From the NCBI RefSeq assembly GCF_009831625.1, contig NZ_WUUS01000001.1:124301-188300 (forward strand): DNA of 64,000 nt. The letters run 5' to 3'. Made by a program: the position numbers and the translations under genes. How positions within the stretch are numbered: position 1 is the first letter of the stretch; each line of letters starts with the position of its first letter. Below, in pieces: positions 3,116 through 14,047 of the stretch. The notes below the pieces were generated by a model that saw only the letters and a list, made by a program, of their open reading frames with translations, did not search any database and had not been told where the DNA came from. Source of the DNA: Halobaculum saliterrae. Its GTDB lineage: Archaea; Halobacteriota; Halobacteria; Halobacteriales; Haloferacaceae.

Positions 3116-3321
3116 ATGGCCGAACGACACCCGAACATGCCACAGCTCCAGTTCGGCACCGAGATCCGGCCGACGACCGACGAGAGGGACACGGTCGCGA
3201 CGACGGAGTATCTGGTCGACGATCGAGACATCGTCGAATCGATCTCAAGGTGACGTTCACCGAGCACGCCGGCGCGGAGTTGATGGGATACGACCGCGTC
3301 GGCGGCGACTGGGAGGGATGA
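3116..3321 (+). pseudogene. Frameshifted small acidic protein gene
   Basis: Frame 1 from the ATG at 3116 reads a haloarchaeal-looking acidic sequence (MAERHPNMPQLQFGTEI, then a VATTEYLVDDRDIVES segment) and stops at 3251-3253. The next frame, from about 3241, continues naturally as DLKVTFTEHAGAELMGYDRV and ends GGDWEG-stop at 3321. Adding one base at about 3239-3241 would join them into one protein of roughly 68 aa. This points to a one-base deletion, or a sequencing error. I do not recognise the family. Confidence 0.5.
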
Positions 3322-3617
3322 ACTCGGAGTCGGTGCGACACACGTCTCGAACGATACCGACGCTAGCCGACCGTTCGGCCGTGTCCTCGTCCGCTTCGTT
3401 GTCCTTTCGACGGCCTCGGAGCGTACAGGCGTCGACGAGTTCGCGAGTAACCCGTCTCTTTGACCGATTTAGCTGAGAGTCCGCGGTACAGAAATTATTT
3501 CCCAACCAGCCGTGTACCTCGCTGCATGAGTTTTCAGTTGGGAGGAGGCAGGGCCACCACAGGGACTTCGTCTAGGGATCCGCTTGCGCTCCCGTCCTCT
3601 CACGGGGACAGAGGGCG

Positions 3618-4913
3618 ATGACGGGGACGAATTTTCTGTTCGTTTCGCTGGACGGACTCATCGGAGATATCGCGTGGCGTGTGAAACAGCACGGAAACGA
3701 CGTGAAGTACGCGATCACGGAGGACGAATTCTCACAGGACGTCTGCGATGGCCTCGTCCCGAAGACCGACGACTGGCGGGCCGAGCTCGAGTGGGCCGAC
3801 GTTGTCGTGATGGACGACAGTTTCGGCCTCGGCCGTGAGGCTGAACGTCTCCGTGAGGAAGGGATTCCGGTCGTCGGCGGCACCGAGTTGACCGACCGAC
3901 TCGAGGAGGACCGGGGGTTCGGACACGAGACGATGCGTGAGTTGGGACTGAACGTCATCGAGTCCCGGATCTTCGAGAGCCTCGACGCCGGCATCGAGTA
4001 CGTCCGAAACAACCCAGCGCCCTACGTTCTGAAACCGAGCGGGGACACGCAGAACTTCAACGAACTTCTCTACGTCGGGCAATCAGAGGACGGCGCCGAC
4101 GTCGTACAGATGCTCCAACGGTATCGGGACAAGTTGGACGGCGAGGTCGAGGAGTTCCAGTTACAGCTCCGGAAAACCGGCATCGAGATCTCCGTCTGCG
4201 GGTTCTTCGACGGAGAACAGTTCGTCGAGCCGATCAATTACACGTTCGAACACAAACGGCTGTTCCCGGGTGACCTCGGCCCGATGACCGGAGAGATGGG
4301 AACGGCGATGTTCTGGGGTCCCCCGAACCGGCTGTTTCACGGGACGATCGCACCGTTCGAGCCTCTCCTCCGTAAGGAAGGGTACGTCGGCGCGTTCGAC
4401 ATCAACTGTATCGTCAACGGCGACGGGATCTTCCCGCTTGAGATCACGTCTCGGTTCGGCTATCCACAGATCGCGATCCAGGAAGCCGCGATGGAGACAC
4501 CGATCGACGACTTCCTGTACGGACTGGCGGCCGGGACCGACCCGGAACTCGAAACGCACGACGGCTTCCAAGTCGGGTTGCGGGTTTGCGTCCCGCCGTT
4601 CCCGGCCGACGACGTCGACTGGTTCGAGGAGCACTCGCGTGACCTGCAGATCGGGTTCCGCGAGGAGGGGCTTCCGGACGGCATTCATCTCGAGGACATG
4701 AAACACACGGACGGCGAGTTCCGCGTTGCGGGCGAGACGGGCGAAGTCCTCGTTGCGACCGGGCTGGGCGAGACGATGCAGGCTGCAAAGACCGAGGCCG
4801 AGGAACGTGCCGACGATGTCGTTCTCCCCAACAATTTTTACCGCACCGATATCGGTTCGAAGTGGCAAAAGGAGGCCGAGCAGTTGATCCGCTGGGGATA
4901 CCTTCGCAACTAG
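3618..4913 (+). CDS. PurD-like ATP-grasp ligase of unknown substrate
   Basis: The 431-aa product is an ATP-grasp protein resembling phosphoribosylamine-glycine ligase (PurD). Seen directly: a Rossmann-like N-terminus (residues 5-66), the nucleotide-binding YVLKPSG at 136-142, the PurD-like block EHKRLFPGDLGPMTGEMGTA at 211-230, and the metal/nucleotide segment PLEITSRFGYPQ at 273-284 (compare EFNCRFGDPE in PurD). The N-terminal GGGGREH glycine loop of true PurD is missing, so a role in purine synthesis is doubtful. ATP-grasp ligases join a carboxylate to an amine or thiol via acyl-phosphate. A metallopeptidase-like gene follows 61 bp downstream on the same strand. GC is lower than in most of the window. 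Confidence 0.75.
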   Translation: MTGTNFLFVSLDGLIGDIAWRVKQHGNDVKYAITEDEFSQDVCDGLVPKTDDWRAELEWADVVVMDDSFGLGREAERLREEGIPVVGGTELTDRLEEDRGFGHETMRELGLNVIESRIFESLDAGIEYVRNNPAPYVLKPSGDTQNFNELLYVGQSEDGADVVQMLQRYRDKLDGEVEEFQLQLRKTGIEISVCGFFDGEQFVEPINYTFEHKRLFPGDLGPMTGEMGTAMFWGPPNRLFHGTIAPFEPLLRKEGYVGAFDINCIVNGDGIFPLEITSRFGYPQIAIQEAAMETPIDDFLYGLAAGTDPELETHDGFQVGLRVCVPPFPADDVDWFEEHSRDLQIGFREEGLPDGIHLEDMKHTDGEFRVAGETGEVLVATGLGETMQAAKTEAEERADDVVLPNNFYRTDIGSKWQKEAEQLIRWGYLRN

Positions 4914-4974
4914 TCGATCCCACCACAGCGCGTAAAGAAACACCTATCCTCGGCCTGCCGCATAGGGACCGTGA

Positions 4975-5460
4975 ATGGAGCGTACCCAGATCGAGGAACG
5001 GACCGAACTCCACGACATCGTCACCGGAGTGTACGATCTCCTCTTTCCGGACGATCTGGACTCGGACGAGATCGACCTATACTACATCGACTCCGAGCAC
5101 GTCGAGGCCGAGATCGAGTTTCCCTACATCGGCATCAACCGCGCGGACTGGGAGCGAGAGTGGACAGCCGAACGAAAACTCGAGGTGCTCCTCCACGAGT
5201 TCGCACACGTCGAGGAAGGCCCCGACGAGGCGGACCACGGACCGCGTTTCTACGATCGGCTCGCCGACTTGACGACCACTGCGGAGGCGAAACAGGAAGG
5301 GATCGAGGCGGTCTTCGGGACGTCCCTCGACTTCGAGCGGATCCATGGCCACATCATCGAATCCGTAAACGAGTACACGATCGAGACAGCTAGCGATACG
5401 ATCGAGGGCAGGCGGCGGGTCCTCCGGCAAGAGCTGTCGGACCCCTCCACGACTCGGTAG
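4975..5460 (+). CDS. Small HEXXH zinc metallopeptidase-like protein
   Basis: The 161-aa product carries VLLHEFAHVE at 71-80 with a downstream DHGPRFYDRL (His88). This HEXXH plus His-Gly arrangement resembles SprT/WLM-type zincins: His74 and His78 bind zinc, Glu75 is the general base, and His88 is the probable third ligand. There is no signal peptide or membrane segment, so it should act in the cytoplasm. It is closely similar over its length to the C-terminal domain (425-573) of the convergent gene at 5470, whose stop lies 9 bp away. It probably shares a transcript with the ATP-grasp gene. Its substrate is unknown; it may cleave a conjugate made by that ligase. Confidence 0.7.
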   Translation: MERTQIEERTELHDIVTGVYDLLFPDDLDSDEIDLYYIDSEHVEAEIEFPYIGINRADWEREWTAERKLEVLLHEFAHVEEGPDEADHGPRFYDRLADLTTTAEAKQEGIEAVFGTSLDFERIHGHIIESVNEYTIETASDTIEGRRRVLRQELSDPSTTR

Positions 5461-5469
5461 CGGTCGCGT

Positions 5470-7191
5470 TCATCGGGGGAAGAACTGTTCACGGAGCCAT
5501 CGTTTCCGTTCGTCGATGTCATCACAGTCCTCTTCGATCGTCTCCTCGTGGACGGATTCGATGATAGACCGACGGACGCCGTCGAAGTCGATGTCCTCGT
5601 CGAACGTCGCTTCGAGTTCCGGTTGCCAGTCGGCGGCGATCGCTGTGATCTCGAGGAGGCGCTCGTAGAACTCGTCGCCGTGGTCGCGCTCGTCCGGTTC
5701 CTCCTCGACGTGCGCGAGTTCGTGAAGTAACACCTCGAGGCGTCGCTCGACCGGCCACTGTCGCCAGTAGTGGAAGTTGATTCCGACCTCCGGAAGGTAG
5801 ACGTCCGCCTCCTCGTCCTCGTGTAGAAGTTGATTTAATTCGATCTCGTCCGGGGAGATCGAGTCCTCAAAGACGACATTGTAGAGCGCAGCGATCGATC
5901 CCTTGATCGAGGCTCGTTCCTCGGGCGTGGTCACGACGCCCCCGGATCCCAGTTCGCCGTGAGGGGTTTCGATCCGAGCGACTGTTTCGTCGGCGAATTC
6001 GGCGGCTTCCACCGGCGTTCCACGAGCACGCTGTCGGAACAGATCTCGAGGGAGTACACCGTCCGCGAGCGTCCGTGAGATCGCGGATCGAACGAGACTC
6101 GCGGCGTCACTCCAGCCGAGATACTCGAACAACAGACGGCCGGCGAGCACCAGCGGGATCGGGTTCGTTCCGGGCGTCGCCGACTGCCTGTGCCCGGACG
6201 AGTGTGCGGTGACGAGAAGCGTTCCGTCGCCGAGTCCGAGATCTGCTGACTCGCTGGTTTGCCCGACTGCCGTGTTAGCCACAGTTGAGAGATACGTCCC
6301 GCCCAGAGCCGGGGCAAGGATCACGTCGTACTCGTCCGGATCGACCAGTAGGTCACGACAGAGTTCCTCAGTTCGACGTTCGAGGAGGACGAGTTCGTCC
6401 TCGGGGAACGCCTGATACTCCTCACGGAACGTCGCTTCGTCCACGACGCTGTCGCCGTACTCCGCATCGATGTACGCACGTGCCCACGATACGAACGAGC
6501 CCTCCGAGGCCGGCCGCAGGTCCCCTTGGTGGGAGATCGTGACCGTCCTCCGATCGTGTTCGAACGCGTATTCGAGTGCCACATCGACGAGCGCTTCGGT
6601 CCCGCTCTGTGAGATAGGGCTGACGCTATACCCGGTCGGATCGTCCGGGACTCGTTCGGCGCCGTCAGTTCGAAGCAGACAGTCGCGAAGCCTTCGTGCG
6701 TCACGTGTCCCCGGCCCGTACTCGAGTGAGGCGGCAACGTCCTCGGAGACATCCCTGAAGAGGGTGCTATCCAGATCACCGCCACGAATCGGTGAGGGAT
6801 GCCGCGCGATGTCCGAACAGCGAGTCGTCGCGGTCACGATCTCGAGACGACTGCGGATCTCGTTCCCGAGCGCGAGCGCCTCTCGACGGTCTCCGGAAAG
6901 TGGTCCAAGGATCCCGAGACGAAACCGTCGGAACGCACGGATCGTCTCTTTCGGGAGGGGATCCCCGTACCGTTCTCGCGCTTCCTCACCGGTATAGACT
7001 CGCATCCAGTGAATTTCCCGCCCCGTCCGTTCGACAGCCGTGTCGAGTATCCGACGAGCCGCCGAGACGAGTTCCTCGTTGACACCCGGGGAAAACGGAA
7101 CGATCGGTGCTTCAGGCGGGGTAAAGTCGCCTTCGTACGTGACCGCCGTTCCCCTTGGGGGAACGGATATCTGTTCGAAATCCCGAGTCAT
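5470..7191 (-). CDS. Inactive isocitrate-dehydrogenase-like domain fused to a HEXXH metallopeptidase domain
   Basis: The 573-aa product has two parts. Residues 8-385 align from memory, block by block, with NADP isocitrate dehydrogenase: IHWMRVYTGEEARERYG (60-76), TLFRDVSEDVAASLEY (143-158), VTISHQGD (217-224), DEYDVILAPALGGTYLS (286-302), LFEYLGWSDAA (354-364). Against E. coli Icd numbering the key residues are changed: Ser113 to Ala107, Asn115 to Gly109, Arg129 to Thr123, Tyr160 to Ala153, Lys230 to Gln222, Asp307 to Thr299 and Asp311 to Thr303. Arg153 is kept as Arg146. Loss of the catalytic Lys and Tyr and of two metal Asp residues predicts no dehydrogenase activity. Residues 425-573 are a zincin with HELAH at 490-494 and His504, paralogous to the gene at 4975. 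Confidence 0.75.
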   Translation of the reverse strand: MTRDFEQISVPPRGTAVTYEGDFTPPEAPIVPFSPGVNEELVSAARRILDTAVERTGREIHWMRVYTGEEARERYGDPLPKETIRAFRRFRLGILGPLSGDRREALALGNEIRSRLEIVTATTRCSDIARHPSPIRGGDLDSTLFRDVSEDVAASLEYGPGTRDARRLRDCLLRTDGAERVPDDPTGYSVSPISQSGTEALVDVALEYAFEHDRRTVTISHQGDLRPASEGSFVSWARAYIDAEYGDSVVDEATFREEYQAFPEDELVLLERRTEELCRDLLVDPDEYDVILAPALGGTYLSTVANTAVGQTSESADLGLGDGTLLVTAHSSGHRQSATPGTNPIPLVLAGRLLFEYLGWSDAASLVRSAISRTLADGVLPRDLFRQRARGTPVEAAEFADETVARIETPHGELGSGGVVTTPEERASIKGSIAALYNVVFEDSISPDEIELNQLLHEDEEADVYLPEVGINFHYWRQWPVERRLEVLLHELAHVEEEPDERDHGDEFYERLLEITAIAADWQPELEATFDEDIDFDGVRRSIIESVHEETIEEDCDDIDERKRWLREQFFPR

Positions 7192-7487
7192 GAGGGAAAT
7201 CCTATCGCCACCCCGGTGAATGTTCGCTCTGCTGTATCACTGTACCTGCCGTCACATCCCGGATCTATCACCACCCGAGGTTCAACAGAGCCGATTCAAA
7301 CGGGTTCGGAACCGATACACGCCGTTCGCGTCCGTTCGATCCGAAATCCTTCTCGTCACGCACCGTTTCGCTCTTCGTGACTGCGAGAGAAGGGATTTGA
7401 ACCACATCCGGACGTGCTCGCTGCGCTGCGCGTCCGGTCTGGTTCAACTCCTCCCGGAACGGTTCGGGGGCCTTCGGCCCCACTCAT
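7192..7487. other. Spacer between the accessory module and tRNA-Leu
   Basis: This interval has no convincing gene. It contains an imperfect copy of the tRNA-Leu 3' end (7383-7403), an inverted repeat around 7399-7446 (GAACCA...CCGGACG paired with CGTCCGG...TGGTTC), and a GGGGGCC-TTC-GGCCCC hairpin at about 7466-7480. These features are listed separately or in the findings. Confidence 0.5.
7383..7403 (-). repeat. Partial duplicate of the tRNA-Leu 3' end (attachment-site remnant)
   Basis: The 21 bp at 7383-7403 match the last 21 nt of the tRNA-Leu gene (7488-7508) at 20 of 21 positions, in the same orientation. Only the tRNA 3' end (acceptor and T-arm side) is repeated. This is the usual signature of an integrase-mediated attachment site at the 3' end of a tRNA gene. 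No integrase gene is visible in the window. Confidence 0.5.
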
Positions 7488-7571
7488 GCGAGGGAAGGGA
7501 TTTGAACCCTCGAACCCCTGAGGGAGCGGATCTTAAGTCCGCCGCCTTTGGCCAAGCTCAGCCACCCTCGC
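7488..7571 (-). tRNA. tRNA-Leu (anticodon UAA)
   Basis: The minus strand folds as an 84-nt class II tRNA. The acceptor stem is GCGAGGG (7571-7565) with CCCTCGC (7494-7488). The anticodon stem GCGGA/TCCGC encloses loop CTTAAGA with anticodon TAA. A long variable arm (GCTCCCTCAGGGG) precedes the T-arm GAGGGTTCAAATCCC. CCA is not encoded. Class II shape and the UAA anticodon identify leucine. Confidence 0.95.
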
Positions 7572-10952: not shown

Positions 10953-11783
10953 TCACTTCGAGGCGTCGGCGTCCTCCTCCTGTTGGAGCTCCTCCAGCTC
11001 CGCCTCGACCTCCTCGTCGACGAGGTCGTCGGACTCGGTCGCGGTGTCGGCCGCGTCGGCGTCGCCGTCGCCGTCGTCGGCGGAACCCTTCCCCAGTTCG
11101 GCACGCAGCGTCTCCAGCTCGGCGTCCACCTCGCGGTCGGTGCGGCCGGAGCTGAGTTCCCGGTCGATCTCGTCCTCGTCGGAGAGCGCGTCGTCGAACG
11201 CGCCGGTGTCCTGCAGCTCGTCCATCGCCTGCGAGCGCGCCTCCATCTCCTCGGTGCGCTCCTCGGCCCGCTCGATCGAGCGGGCCACGTCGCCCATCTC
11301 GTCGCCGACGCCGGACATCGCCTCCGAGACGCGGGTCGAGGCCTCCGCCGCCTCGTAGCGCGCCTTCATCGTCTCCTTCTTCGTGCGGAACTCCTCGATG
11401 CGGCCCTGAAGCTCGTCCTTCTTGTCTACCAGCCGGTCCTGGGTGTCCTGCAGCTCAGCGATCTGCGTCTCCAGGTCCTCGATCTGGTTCATCTTCGACT
11501 TCTTCTTCTCGAGCGCCTTGCGCGCGAGGTCGTCGCGGTCCTGCTGGACCGCCTCCCGCGCCTGTTCGTTGTGCTTCTCGACGTTCTCCTCAAGGCGACG
11601 CTTCTGGATCTCCAGGCGCTTCTTCTGGGTGGTGAGGTCGGCGATACCCTGTTTCACGTCCTGAAGCTCGTCGCGCATCTGCTCGTAGCTGTAGTCGAGC
11701 GACTCCGACGGGTCCTCCGCTCGGTTGAGGAGCGCGTTGACCTTCGAGCGGACGACGTAGGAGGCGCGAGAGAGGATTCCCAT
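10953..11783 (-). CDS. pspA: PspA/IM30 (ESCRT-III-like) family protein
   Basis: The 276-aa product begins MGILSRASYVVRSKVNALLN, the membrane-binding amphipathic helix of PspA/Vipp1, followed by long coiled-coil helices (about 25-190, for example QKKRLEIQKRRLEENVEKHN). The C-terminal third is a very acidic linker rich in Asp/Glu, a haloarchaeal elaboration. PspA forms ESCRT-III-like polymers that protect membranes under stress. It has its own promoter (TATA at 11808-11814), is probably leaderless, and diverges from a hydrolase gene. The membrane protein and ferredoxin genes lie downstream. Confidence 0.88.
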   Translation of the reverse strand: MGILSRASYVVRSKVNALLNRAEDPSESLDYSYEQMRDELQDVKQGIADLTTQKKRLEIQKRRLEENVEKHNEQAREAVQQDRDDLARKALEKKKSKMNQIEDLETQIAELQDTQDRLVDKKDELQGRIEEFRTKKETMKARYEAAEASTRVSEAMSGVGDEMGDVARSIERAEERTEEMEARSQAMDELQDTGAFDDALSDEDEIDRELSSGRTDREVDAELETLRAELGKGSADDGDGDADAADTATESDDLVDEEVEAELEELQQEEDADASK

Positions 11784-11805
11784 GCTCTCGGCTAGGACAA
11801 CTGGC

Positions 11806-11816
11806 CGTATAAATCT
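11806..11816 (-). promoter_or_regulatory. TATA element of pspA
   Basis: On the minus strand the sequence reads ATTTATACGG, with the A/T core at 11808-11814, 25-31 nt upstream of the pspA ATG. This spacing implies a leaderless transcript. Confidence 0.6.
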
Positions 11817-11873
11817 CACCCGACCGAGAGGACGGTCGACGCCGTTTTGCGGGGCGCGACCGCAGCCGAACGC

Positions 11874-12500
11874 ATGACCGACGTACTCGTGCCGGGCGGA
11901 CGCGACGTGCGCGCCTCGCTCGACCGTGGGGCCGAGTCGGAGGCGACCCCGGCGGACGCGACCGCCGCCGGCGACGCCGACGCCTGCGTGGTCGCGTGTC
12001 CCCCGCATCCGCAGCACCGCGGCCACCGCGGCGACGAGCGCCTCCGGGCGGTCTCGTCGGTCCTGACCGCCGGCGGCGTCGACTGCCTCCGGTTCGACTA
12101 CGGCGACTGGGACGAGGGATACGGCGAGCGCGCCGACGCCCGCAACGCCGTCGCGTGGGCGCGCGAGCGCTACGACCGCGTCGGCCTGTTCGGCTTCAGC
12201 TTCGGGGGCTGTCTGGCCCTGCTGGTCGGATCGGAGGGCGACGCGGACGCCGTCTCGGCGCTGGCGCCGACGGCGCGGCTCGCGTCCGACCTCGACGCCG
12301 TGGCCGCGATGGCGGACATCGACTGCCCCGCGCAGGTGGTGTACGCGACCCGCGACGACACCGCCGACTGGGAGCCGGTCGTCGAGCGCGCGCGGGAACT
12401 CGGGTTCGACCGCCGGGAGTTCTCGGCCGACCACTTCTTCGTCGGGCAGTCGGGGAAGGTCGGCGACGCCGTGGGTGAGTGGCTACTCGACGCGCTGTGA
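11874..12500 (+). CDS. Alpha/beta hydrolase (dienelactone-hydrolase-like)
   Basis: The 208-aa product has the serine-hydrolase nucleophile elbow GFSFGG, an early CPPHPQHRGHRGDERL oxyanion-loop region, a likely acidic residue in YATRDDTADW and a C-terminal His in SADHFFVG. These match small alpha/beta hydrolases often annotated as dienelactone hydrolases. It is cytoplasmic and its substrate is unknown. The ATG at 11874 was preferred over the upstream in-frame start because the preceding residues do not look coding. Its end overlaps the convergent membrane protein gene by 18 bp. Confidence 0.82.
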   Translation: MTDVLVPGGRDVRASLDRGAESEATPADATAAGDADACVVACPPHPQHRGHRGDERLRAVSSVLTAGGVDCLRFDYGDWDEGYGERADARNAVAWARERYDRVGLFGFSFGGCLALLVGSEGDADAVSALAPTARLASDLDAVAAMADIDCPAQVVYATRDDTADWEPVVERARELGFDRREFSADHFFVGQSGKVGDAVGEWLLDAL

Positions 12501-12899
12501 GGCGTCGGCGGCGTCGCTCTCGCGGTAGCCGACGGCGAGGTTGACCACGACCGCGGTGGCCGCGAGCGCGAGGACGAACACCCAGAACGCGGCGCTCGCG
12601 GCCCCGGCGAGGCTTCGGGTGAGAACGTACGCCGCCGCCGCCGCGATCCCGGCGAGCGCGAACGGCGCGAGGAACGGGGCGTCGCTCCAGGCGCCGCCCG
12701 CGTTGCGGTACTCGACGGCCGACGCCCAGACGTTGCCGACGGTGAACTGGAAGACGACCAGCCCGAACAGCCCGGAGAGCACCGCGACGAACGGCTCTGC
12801 ACCCCCGGCGAGCTGGAGGGCGGTGCCGGCGAGGAAGACGACGAGCATGAGCGCGTGCCAGGGTCTGAGTCGATCGCGGACGCGATCGTGGAGGGCCAT
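12483..12899 (-). CDS. Haloarchaeal membrane protein
   Basis: The 138-aa product has four hydrophobic segments (about residues 14-32, 38-56, 75-94 and 104-124) and short polar ends, with an acidic C-terminal tail. I recognise no family motif. It lies 36 bp downstream of the transcription factor S gene on the same strand and may be part of that transcript. Its 3' end overlaps the end of the hydrolase gene. Confidence 0.65.
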   Translation of the reverse strand: MALHDRVRDRLRPWHALMLVVFLAGTALQLAGGAEPFVAVLSGLFGLVVFQFTVGNVWASAVEYRNAGGAWSDAPFLAPFALAGIAAAAAYVLTRSLAGAASAAFWVFVLALAATAVVVNLAVGYRESDAADASQRVE

Positions 12900-12935
12900 A
12901 TCCGGGTCTCTCGCGACGGTGACAAAAGCCCGTCG

Positions 12936-13259
12936 TCAGTTGTACTCCCGCCAGCGATAGCCGCACTCCTTGCACTTGAAGAACCGTGTGGGCGGCTCGT
13001 CGGCGGCGCCGGTCTGTTTGATCGTGTACCACGCGACTGTGTGGCCGCACTCGTCGCAGATCACGTCCTCCGAGGTGGGCTTCCCCTCGAAGTTCGCGCC
13101 CTCCTCGGTCTCGATCACGTCGTCGTCGGTCTGGGCCTCGGTGGAGACGAACTCGGCGGCGCGCTCCTCGTCGCGCTCGGCGGTGGCGCCGCAGGCGGAA
13201 CACACCATCACGCCGTCCTCGGTCCGCATCATCGACCCGCACTCGTCACAGAACTGCAT
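12936..13259 (-). CDS. tfs: Transcription factor S (TFIIS/Rpb9-like)
   Basis: The 107-aa product has two zinc ribbons: CDECGSMM...CSACG near the N-terminus and the diagnostic C-terminal ribbon CDECGHTVAWYTIKQTGAAD with a final CKECGYRWREY. Archaeal TFS stimulates RNA-cleavage rescue of stalled RNA polymerase through an acidic Asp-Glu pair in the loop of the C-terminal ribbon. Here the corresponding tip reads AADEPPTRFF and contains Asp-Glu. Its length is normal. It lies 32 bp downstream of the acidic Cys-rich protein gene, so the three genes from 14894 probably form an operon. Confidence 0.93.
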   Translation of the reverse strand: MQFCDECGSMMRTEDGVMVCSACGATAERDEERAAEFVSTEAQTDDDVIETEEGANFEGKPTSEDVICDECGHTVAWYTIKQTGAADEPPTRFFKCKECGYRWREYN

Positions 13260-13291
13260 TGGCGAGGCTTGCGCCCGCGACCCGGTATGCG

Positions 13292-14047
13292 TTACGCGTC
13301 GAAGTCGTCCGCGACGGGGCCGTCACCGTCGACTGCGTCTACCTCGTTGTTCGCCATCGAGGCCTCGCTTCGCTCGGCCTCGCCCGCGGTCGAGAACGCC
13401 GGTCTCCCCTCGTCGGTCACCATCGGGCACCCGCGGACGCGGAACCGGTCGGCGTCGACGACCTCCAGGATGTCGGTGCCGTCGTGCTCGCACGCCACCT
13501 CCGGCGGCGCCGTGAGGTACGGACACCGCTGGCAGTACTGGCGCTTGTCGAGCACGTGCTCGGGACGTGCGTCGCCGCCGTCGGCGCCGTCGACGGGAAC
13601 GGCGTTCGGCTCCGCAACCGCCGAGGATCCGGCCGACACGTCCGCGCTCGGCCCCCCCGCGGCGGCCGTCTCCGCCCCGGATCCCTCGCCCGAGAGCGAC
13701 GCCCAGAGCTCGTCCTCGTCGAGGTCGCCCACGTCGACCTCCTCGAACGGGTCATCGTCCGGATCGGGGTCGGAGTGGTCGTCCCCGCGGCGTCGCCGGC
13801 GGCTCACCTCCCGCGCGAGGTCGCCGAGGGGGGCGTCGCCGTCGACCTCCCTCCCGACGCCGTCGCCGTCGCCGTCGCTGTCGTCGTCGGAGGAGTCTCC
13901 CGTCGGGATGTCGGCGGCGGGGCCGTCCGCCGGAAACGGGTTCTCGACCGAGGGGACGTCGTCCGGATTCGTTTCGTCGCCGAACGGGTCGTGGGGTTCC
14001 CCGTCGCCGTCGTCCCTGCGGTCGCCCTCGGACGGCTCCTCAGCCAT
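13292..14047 (-). CDS. Acidic haloarchaeal protein with a Cys-rich segment
   Basis: The 251-aa product has a long disordered Asp/Gly-rich N-terminal two thirds, then a conserved-looking segment with QYCQRCPYLTAPPEVACEH and VRGCPMVTDEG. The four Cys residues (C-x2-C...C...C) could bind zinc or an iron-sulfur cluster. It overlaps the upstream coiled-coil gene by 8 bp and is followed 32 bp later by tfs, so translational coupling is likely. The family is not recognised; a role in transcription is only suggested by context. Confidence 0.7.
   Translation of the reverse strand: MAEEPSEGDRRDDGDGEPHDPFGDETNPDDVPSVENPFPADGPAADIPTGDSSDDDSDGDGDGVGREVDGDAPLGDLAREVSRRRRRGDDHSDPDPDDDPFEEVDVGDLDEDELWASLSGEGSGAETAAAGGPSADVSAGSSAVAEPNAVPVDGADGGDARPEHVLDKRQYCQRCPYLTAPPEVACEHDGTDILEVVDADRFRVRGCPMVTDEGRPAFSTAGEAERSEASMANNEVDAVDGDGPVADDFDA

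Follow-up and report, generated by a model that had tools for sequence, protein, structure and literature searches.

Related proteins

Not all proteins with the isocitrate dehydrogenase (Icd) fold are enzymes in their own right: yeast IDH1 and human IDH3 gamma are non-catalytic subunits that bind citrate/ADP or AMP and control their partner. Regulatory IDH subunits of this kind (yeast IDH1, human IDH3 gamma and beta) are the precedent for non-catalytic Icd-fold proteins (PMC9731866). Among the zinc peptidases, a minigluzincin-like character has been ascribed to Wss1 and SprT (PMC4559962). For a fusion between an Icd and a metallopeptidase, nothing relevant was found in the literature (open PMC papers).

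The fusion gene

The window (the whole 64,000-nt stretch of Halobaculum saliterrae DNA analyzed here) contains a gene of this kind, for a degenerate Icd-like domain (pseudo-Icd) followed by a zinc peptidase domain (Table 1). Its open reading frame has an ATG start and 573 codons plus a stop, without interruption, as originally predicted in coordinates, strand and length. The two domains given in that prediction were also recovered, although its limits (residues 8-385 and 425-573) proved too narrow, the wider bounds in Table 1 fitting better. The two-domain architecture is well supported.

Table 1. Features of the fusion locus, in window coordinates.
Feature	Positions	Strand	Description	Basis
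Low-GC island	3318..7349	.	ca. 4.0 kb; exactly three genes (ATP-grasp, free zincin, fusion)	Flank alignments, GC
PurD/GARS-like ATP-grasp ligase	3618..4913	+	431 aa	Profile matches
Free-standing zincin paralog	4975..5460	+	161 aa; HEFAH...H; 44-45% identical to the fusion's zincin domain	
Pseudo-Icd/zincin fusion gene	5470..7191	-	573 aa	ORF, Pfam, phmmer, AlphaFold2 + Foldseek
Minigluzincin-like zinc peptidase domain	5473..5940	-	C-terminal, residues 418-573; HELAH at 490-494, His504	
Pseudo-Icd domain	5971..7182	-	Residues 4-407; active-site residues lost	Sequence match, alignment, predicted fold
Copy of tRNA-Leu 3' end	7382..7403	+	22 bp; 21/22 identical to 7487-7508	
tRNA-Leu(TAA)	7487..7571	-	3' end faces the island	

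The host genome is a draft in 21 contigs, which could bring to mind an assembly or contamination artefact, but this is extremely improbable: the flanks of the island align with the syntenic locus in ten congeners, and another assembly holds the same fusion, so a false join or contamination was ruled out. The fusion is genuine. The same architecture occurs in an independent genome, the predicted structure has the Icd fold, and a full alignment gives no intact catalytic site (see below).

The Icd-like domain

The fusion scores 89.2 bits against Pfam Iso_dh (PF00180; cut-off 27), and its best solved relative is the A. fulgidus Icd, 2iv0 (phmmer against PDB, E=2.3e-67, residues 4-406). For an AlphaFold2 model (mean pLDDT 81.7) built from 31 aligned window and locus proteins, Foldseek likewise ranks 2iv0 first (E=1.3e-33; TM 0.86 by target length). 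Because that alignment held real Icds, favoring this fold, it is the sequence match that provides independent support. Pfam, phmmer and predicted structure all point to an Icd, as expected from the original prediction, and by fold the domain belongs to the isocitrate/isopropylmalate dehydrogenase superfamily. It falls well short of the score for a functional Icd (TIGR00183, 212.6 bits against an equivalog cut-off of 567.3). The region equivalent to the clasp (window residues ca. 150-200) is modeled with low confidence (pLDDT 51-69), so that even the contact between dimer subunits may have changed. Placement among the Icds by tree was abandoned, with branches of 10 and 2.5 changes per column being far too long to resolve anything beyond the grouping of the two known fusions.

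For the active site, the fusion was aligned with 27 Icds from haloarchaeal genomes, the host's own included; the E. coli residue numbers used here are mapped by motif, not by direct alignment to the E. coli protein. Twenty-two positions were examined, and the 27 Icds vary at only two of them. The fusion has the replacements K100L, T104S, T105G, S113A, N115G, R129T, Y160A, K230Q, N232D, D283E, D307T, D311T, G340S, K344R, and Y391R, including every one of the seven originally called (K230Q, Y160A, S113A, N115G, R129T, D307T, and D311T); it retains R119, R153, H339, N352, and R395. The catalytic Lys230 and Tyr160, present in 27/27 haloarchaeal Icds, are Q222 and A153 here and Gln and Ala in the one ortholog found (described below), and the metal ligands Asp283/307/311 are E275/T299/T303 here and Asp/Ala/Thr there. 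The ortholog has lost most of the same positions, with identical replacements at five (Y160A, K230Q, N232D, D311T, and Y391R). Altogether, of the 20 active-site columns with almost no variation in the 27 Icds, 14 are lost in both fusions. The predicted loss of catalytic, metal-binding and cofactor-binding residues is thus borne out and, as far as sequence comparison goes, the domain is an Icd fold without the residues on which the chemistry of isocitrate, metal and NADP depends.

The idea that losses fall preferentially on the active site was considered and rejected: both fusions keep 4/20 active-site columns and 66/193 other invariant Icd columns (p=0.22). Since active-site columns have not been lost significantly more often, the Icd part has drifted as a whole while staying full length.

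These residues bear on two proposals for the role of the domain. One is that it is a ligand sensor, binding a carboxylate or nucleotide and thereby opening or closing the peptidase. Both fusions keep R119, R153, N352, and R395, and regulatory subunits with an Icd fold are known (PMC9731866). Set against these, the two fusions share the loss of S113, N115, R129, Y160, and the greater part of the HGSAPKY cofactor loop. The usual form of the substrate pocket is thus not preserved, nor is that of the NADP pocket, and the proposal is unlikely.

The other is that the Icd fold has been re-purposed as a catalyst of some other reaction, and that the zincin tail serves in its maturation or auto-processing. 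Forty-one residues common to both fusions occur in none of the 27 Icds, Y160A, K230Q, N232D, and D311T among them; the altered site has thus been conserved in part. The loss of the general acid/base Lys and Tyr together with two metal-binding Asp residues nonetheless makes such catalysis decidedly unlikely; no beta-decarboxylating dehydrogenase is known to us that functions in the absence of the catalytic Lys and Tyr and the metal Asp.

A normal Icd is kept on another contig of the same genome, and the fusion therefore need not serve the TCA cycle. A different genome (G154) carries a pair of full-length Icd-like genes whose scores are nearly the same (C1:3376455-3377816, C2:221954-223198).

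The peptidase domain

The C-terminal part carries the zincin signature as predicted: an intact HExxH motif (H490, E491, H494) with a downstream third ligand (H504), all four residues invariant in 7/7 aligned zincins. The peptidase is apparently active, to judge from these residues. It had been called SprT/WLM-type; it is a zincin, but not SprT or WLM proper, since it reaches neither Pfam cut-off (SprT-like, PF10263, 13.4 bits against 25.6; WLM, PF08325, 11.5 bits against 26), and for this reason "minigluzincin-like" is preferred. Modeled by itself with six relatives (pLDDT 88.7), the domain has archaeal minigluzincins (abylysin, selecase, jannalysin) as its top nine Foldseek matches, with Wss1 further down; the nine have probabilities of 0.95-1.00 but E values of 0.02-0.19, with TM 0.56-0.62 by target length and 0.40-0.45 by query length.

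Related zincins occur in other settings. One haloarchaeal protein of 512 aa (L140:1495-3033, minus strand) has a C-terminal zincin motif, HELGHHETNPDEDGHG, and an N-terminal stretch resembling a GHKL-type ATPase (domains judged by eye); a different N-terminal domain before a related zincin is in line with the zincin being a portable protease tail. Distant free-standing zincins (L102:6359-8654; L104:7617-9894) adjoin a shared family of integrase-like genes in stretches of low GC3, suggesting that relatives of the peptidase may ride other mobile elements.

Neighboring genes and distribution

What the original prediction overlooked is the context: the fusion is one of three genes in an acquired cassette, the others encoding an ATP-grasp ligase and a free paralog of its zincin. 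The free zincin gene is convergent with the fusion, their stop codons 9 bp apart, and the ATP-grasp gene lies 61 bp upstream of it. The ligase matches the PurD profile at 88.8 bits, far under the cut-off of 288, and 2xcl with a profile E of 1e-19. It belongs to a paralog family found in 145/392 Halobacteriales genomes (51-55% identity for a compared sample) and generally without zincins. The gene neighborhoods of paralogs L088-L101 are largely unrelated, and the two copies scored against PurD were far below its cut-off.

One ortholog of the fusion was found, in a metagenome-assembled genome (MAG) of another family, Euryarchaeota archaeon Ods04 (JAQZDD010000007.1; G048 C229), bringing the known examples to two. 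It has the same architecture and 50% identity overall (580 aa against 573 aa), with 46% for the Icd part and 61% for the zincin part. The MAG locus also has its free zincin, along with an ATP-grasp gene that is 72% identical to that in the window, with AstE-like and amphi-Trp/HVO_2922 genes lying among the module genes. Two diverged copies of a segment, 71-77% identical, bracket the module in the MAG (L034:1957-4437, 11034-13960); they carry HVO_2922-type repeats and a membrane-protein-like gene.

A third fusion was not found among 392 Halobacteriales genomes, 170 of the family and 295 of the phylum (overlapping samples, of about 700 distinct genomes as counted by handles), nor in a pattern scan of GTDB r220, a kind of scan that can miss diverged members, nor in IMG/VR. 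Relatives of the zincin occur in only 5/392 Halobacteriales genomes, and zincin and ATP-grasp genes are found together in both of the genomes with a fusion. That these three genes are linked in two genomes so far apart, when the zincin family is rare, suggests that they function together.

Comparison of the two fusions also bears on whether the gene is simply decaying, with an Icd part that is no more than a remnant, retained because the peptidase is useful or because the island carries it. The Icd part does diverge faster than the zincin part (46% against 61% identity), and the fusion has the lowest GC3 of the cassette (0.70). However, the frame is open and full-length, of near-constant length in two distant genomes, and the Icd part, at 46% identity, is free of stops and frameshifts, leaving decay an outside chance. 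Instead, the persistence of a degenerate Icd domain at this level of identity in both genomes argues for a kept function.

Origin of the cassette

The three-gene cassette was acquired within this genus. The insert is missing at this site in 10/10 genomes of the genus, in which the distance from the upstream luciferase-like gene to the downstream tRNA-Leu is 0.6-1.9 kb, as against 4.9 kb here. Its base composition is also distinct: the island has a GC of 0.613 versus 0.703, and its three genes have GC 0.61-0.62 and GC3 0.70-0.82, versus 0.68-0.74 and 0.92-0.98 for eleven other window genes. In adjoining a tRNA gene and being absent from the corresponding site in relatives (10/10 congeners) it resembles a tRNA-associated genomic island. 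No integrase is encoded by its three genes, and no flanking att repeats were found, both 22-bp repeats being on one side and relatives also carrying copies. The 3' end of tRNA-Leu(TAA), which looks like a recurrent insertion site, is repeated in the window (7382-7508) and has several copies in one congener (L136, G210; 1220-1536).

An acquired cassette of this sort invites comparison with defense islands. On this proposal the pseudo-Icd would be an integrated decoy, a mimic of the host Icd through which viral or toxin attack on Icd trips the peptidase. The cassette is indeed at a tRNA site and missing from congeners, a dead copy of a housekeeping enzyme is joined to an effector-like peptidase, and distant zincins adjoin integrase-like genes. 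Against this, PADLOC gave no match for any cassette protein, so that a known defense system was rejected, and no recognized defense genes adjoin the cassette. Relatives of the fusion, zincin and ATP-grasp proteins were all absent from IMG/VR scans, on which ground a viral gene was rejected; likewise, the zincin domain had no match in phage records, and the free zincin had none in PLSDB, so that a plasmid gene was rejected as well. A decoy is improbable in consequence. On its own, the Icd part has matches to two PHROGs, neither of known function.

A possible mechanism

The leading explanation, a tentative one, is that the pseudo-Icd targets or controls the attached peptidase through Icd-type contacts, within the three-gene cassette. 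The domain would serve as both targeting and control module for a minigluzincin-type peptidase, acting through Icd-type subunit contacts, either between its own copies or to the normal cellular Icd. The free zincin paralog would work without such a module, and the ATP-grasp ligase might make or modify the substrate. Peptidase activity, partner binding by the Icd part, and joint action of the three gene products are what we infer from the locus, as is any role of the Icd part as a sensor, scaffold or binding module, which the original prediction proposed.

A broader formulation is possible but rather doubtful: a mobile archaeal system consisting of an ATP-grasp ligase and two paralogous minigluzincins, one of them aimed or switched by a captured, dead TCA-cycle enzyme. 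Within such a system the pseudo-Icd could possibly be a bait or a partner for the host Icd.

If the proposed role is correct, a dead Icd fused to a protease on an acquired cassette would be a different use of the Icd fold, linking central metabolism to targeted proteolysis in archaea. Being compact and well delimited, the cassette could be transferred to a laboratory haloarchaeon for direct tests.

Comparison with known systems

With NADP-dependent Icd (TIGR00183, PF00180) the fusion shares its fold, and it is ca. 35-40% identical to the host's own Icd over the whole enzyme; it differs in lacking the catalytic Lys and Tyr, the metal Asp, the substrate-binding Ser, Asn, and Arg, and the NADP loop, and in carrying a peptidase. 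The non-catalytic IDH subunits put an Icd fold to regulatory or structural use, as is proposed for the pseudo-Icd, but they control the catalytic subunit of their own enzyme, while the pseudo-Icd is NADP-Icd-like and fused to a peptidase.

The minigluzincins (abylysin, jannalysin, selecase) and Wss1/SprT have an HExxH motif and a third His, as does the fusion's zincin, which differs from them in its helical C-terminal extension as well as its fusion to a pseudo-Icd. PurD (GAR synthetase), finally, has a domain layout in common with the cassette's ATP-grasp ligase, which matches the PurD profile; the ligase nonetheless falls in a haloarchaeal paralog family, far below the PurD cut-off.
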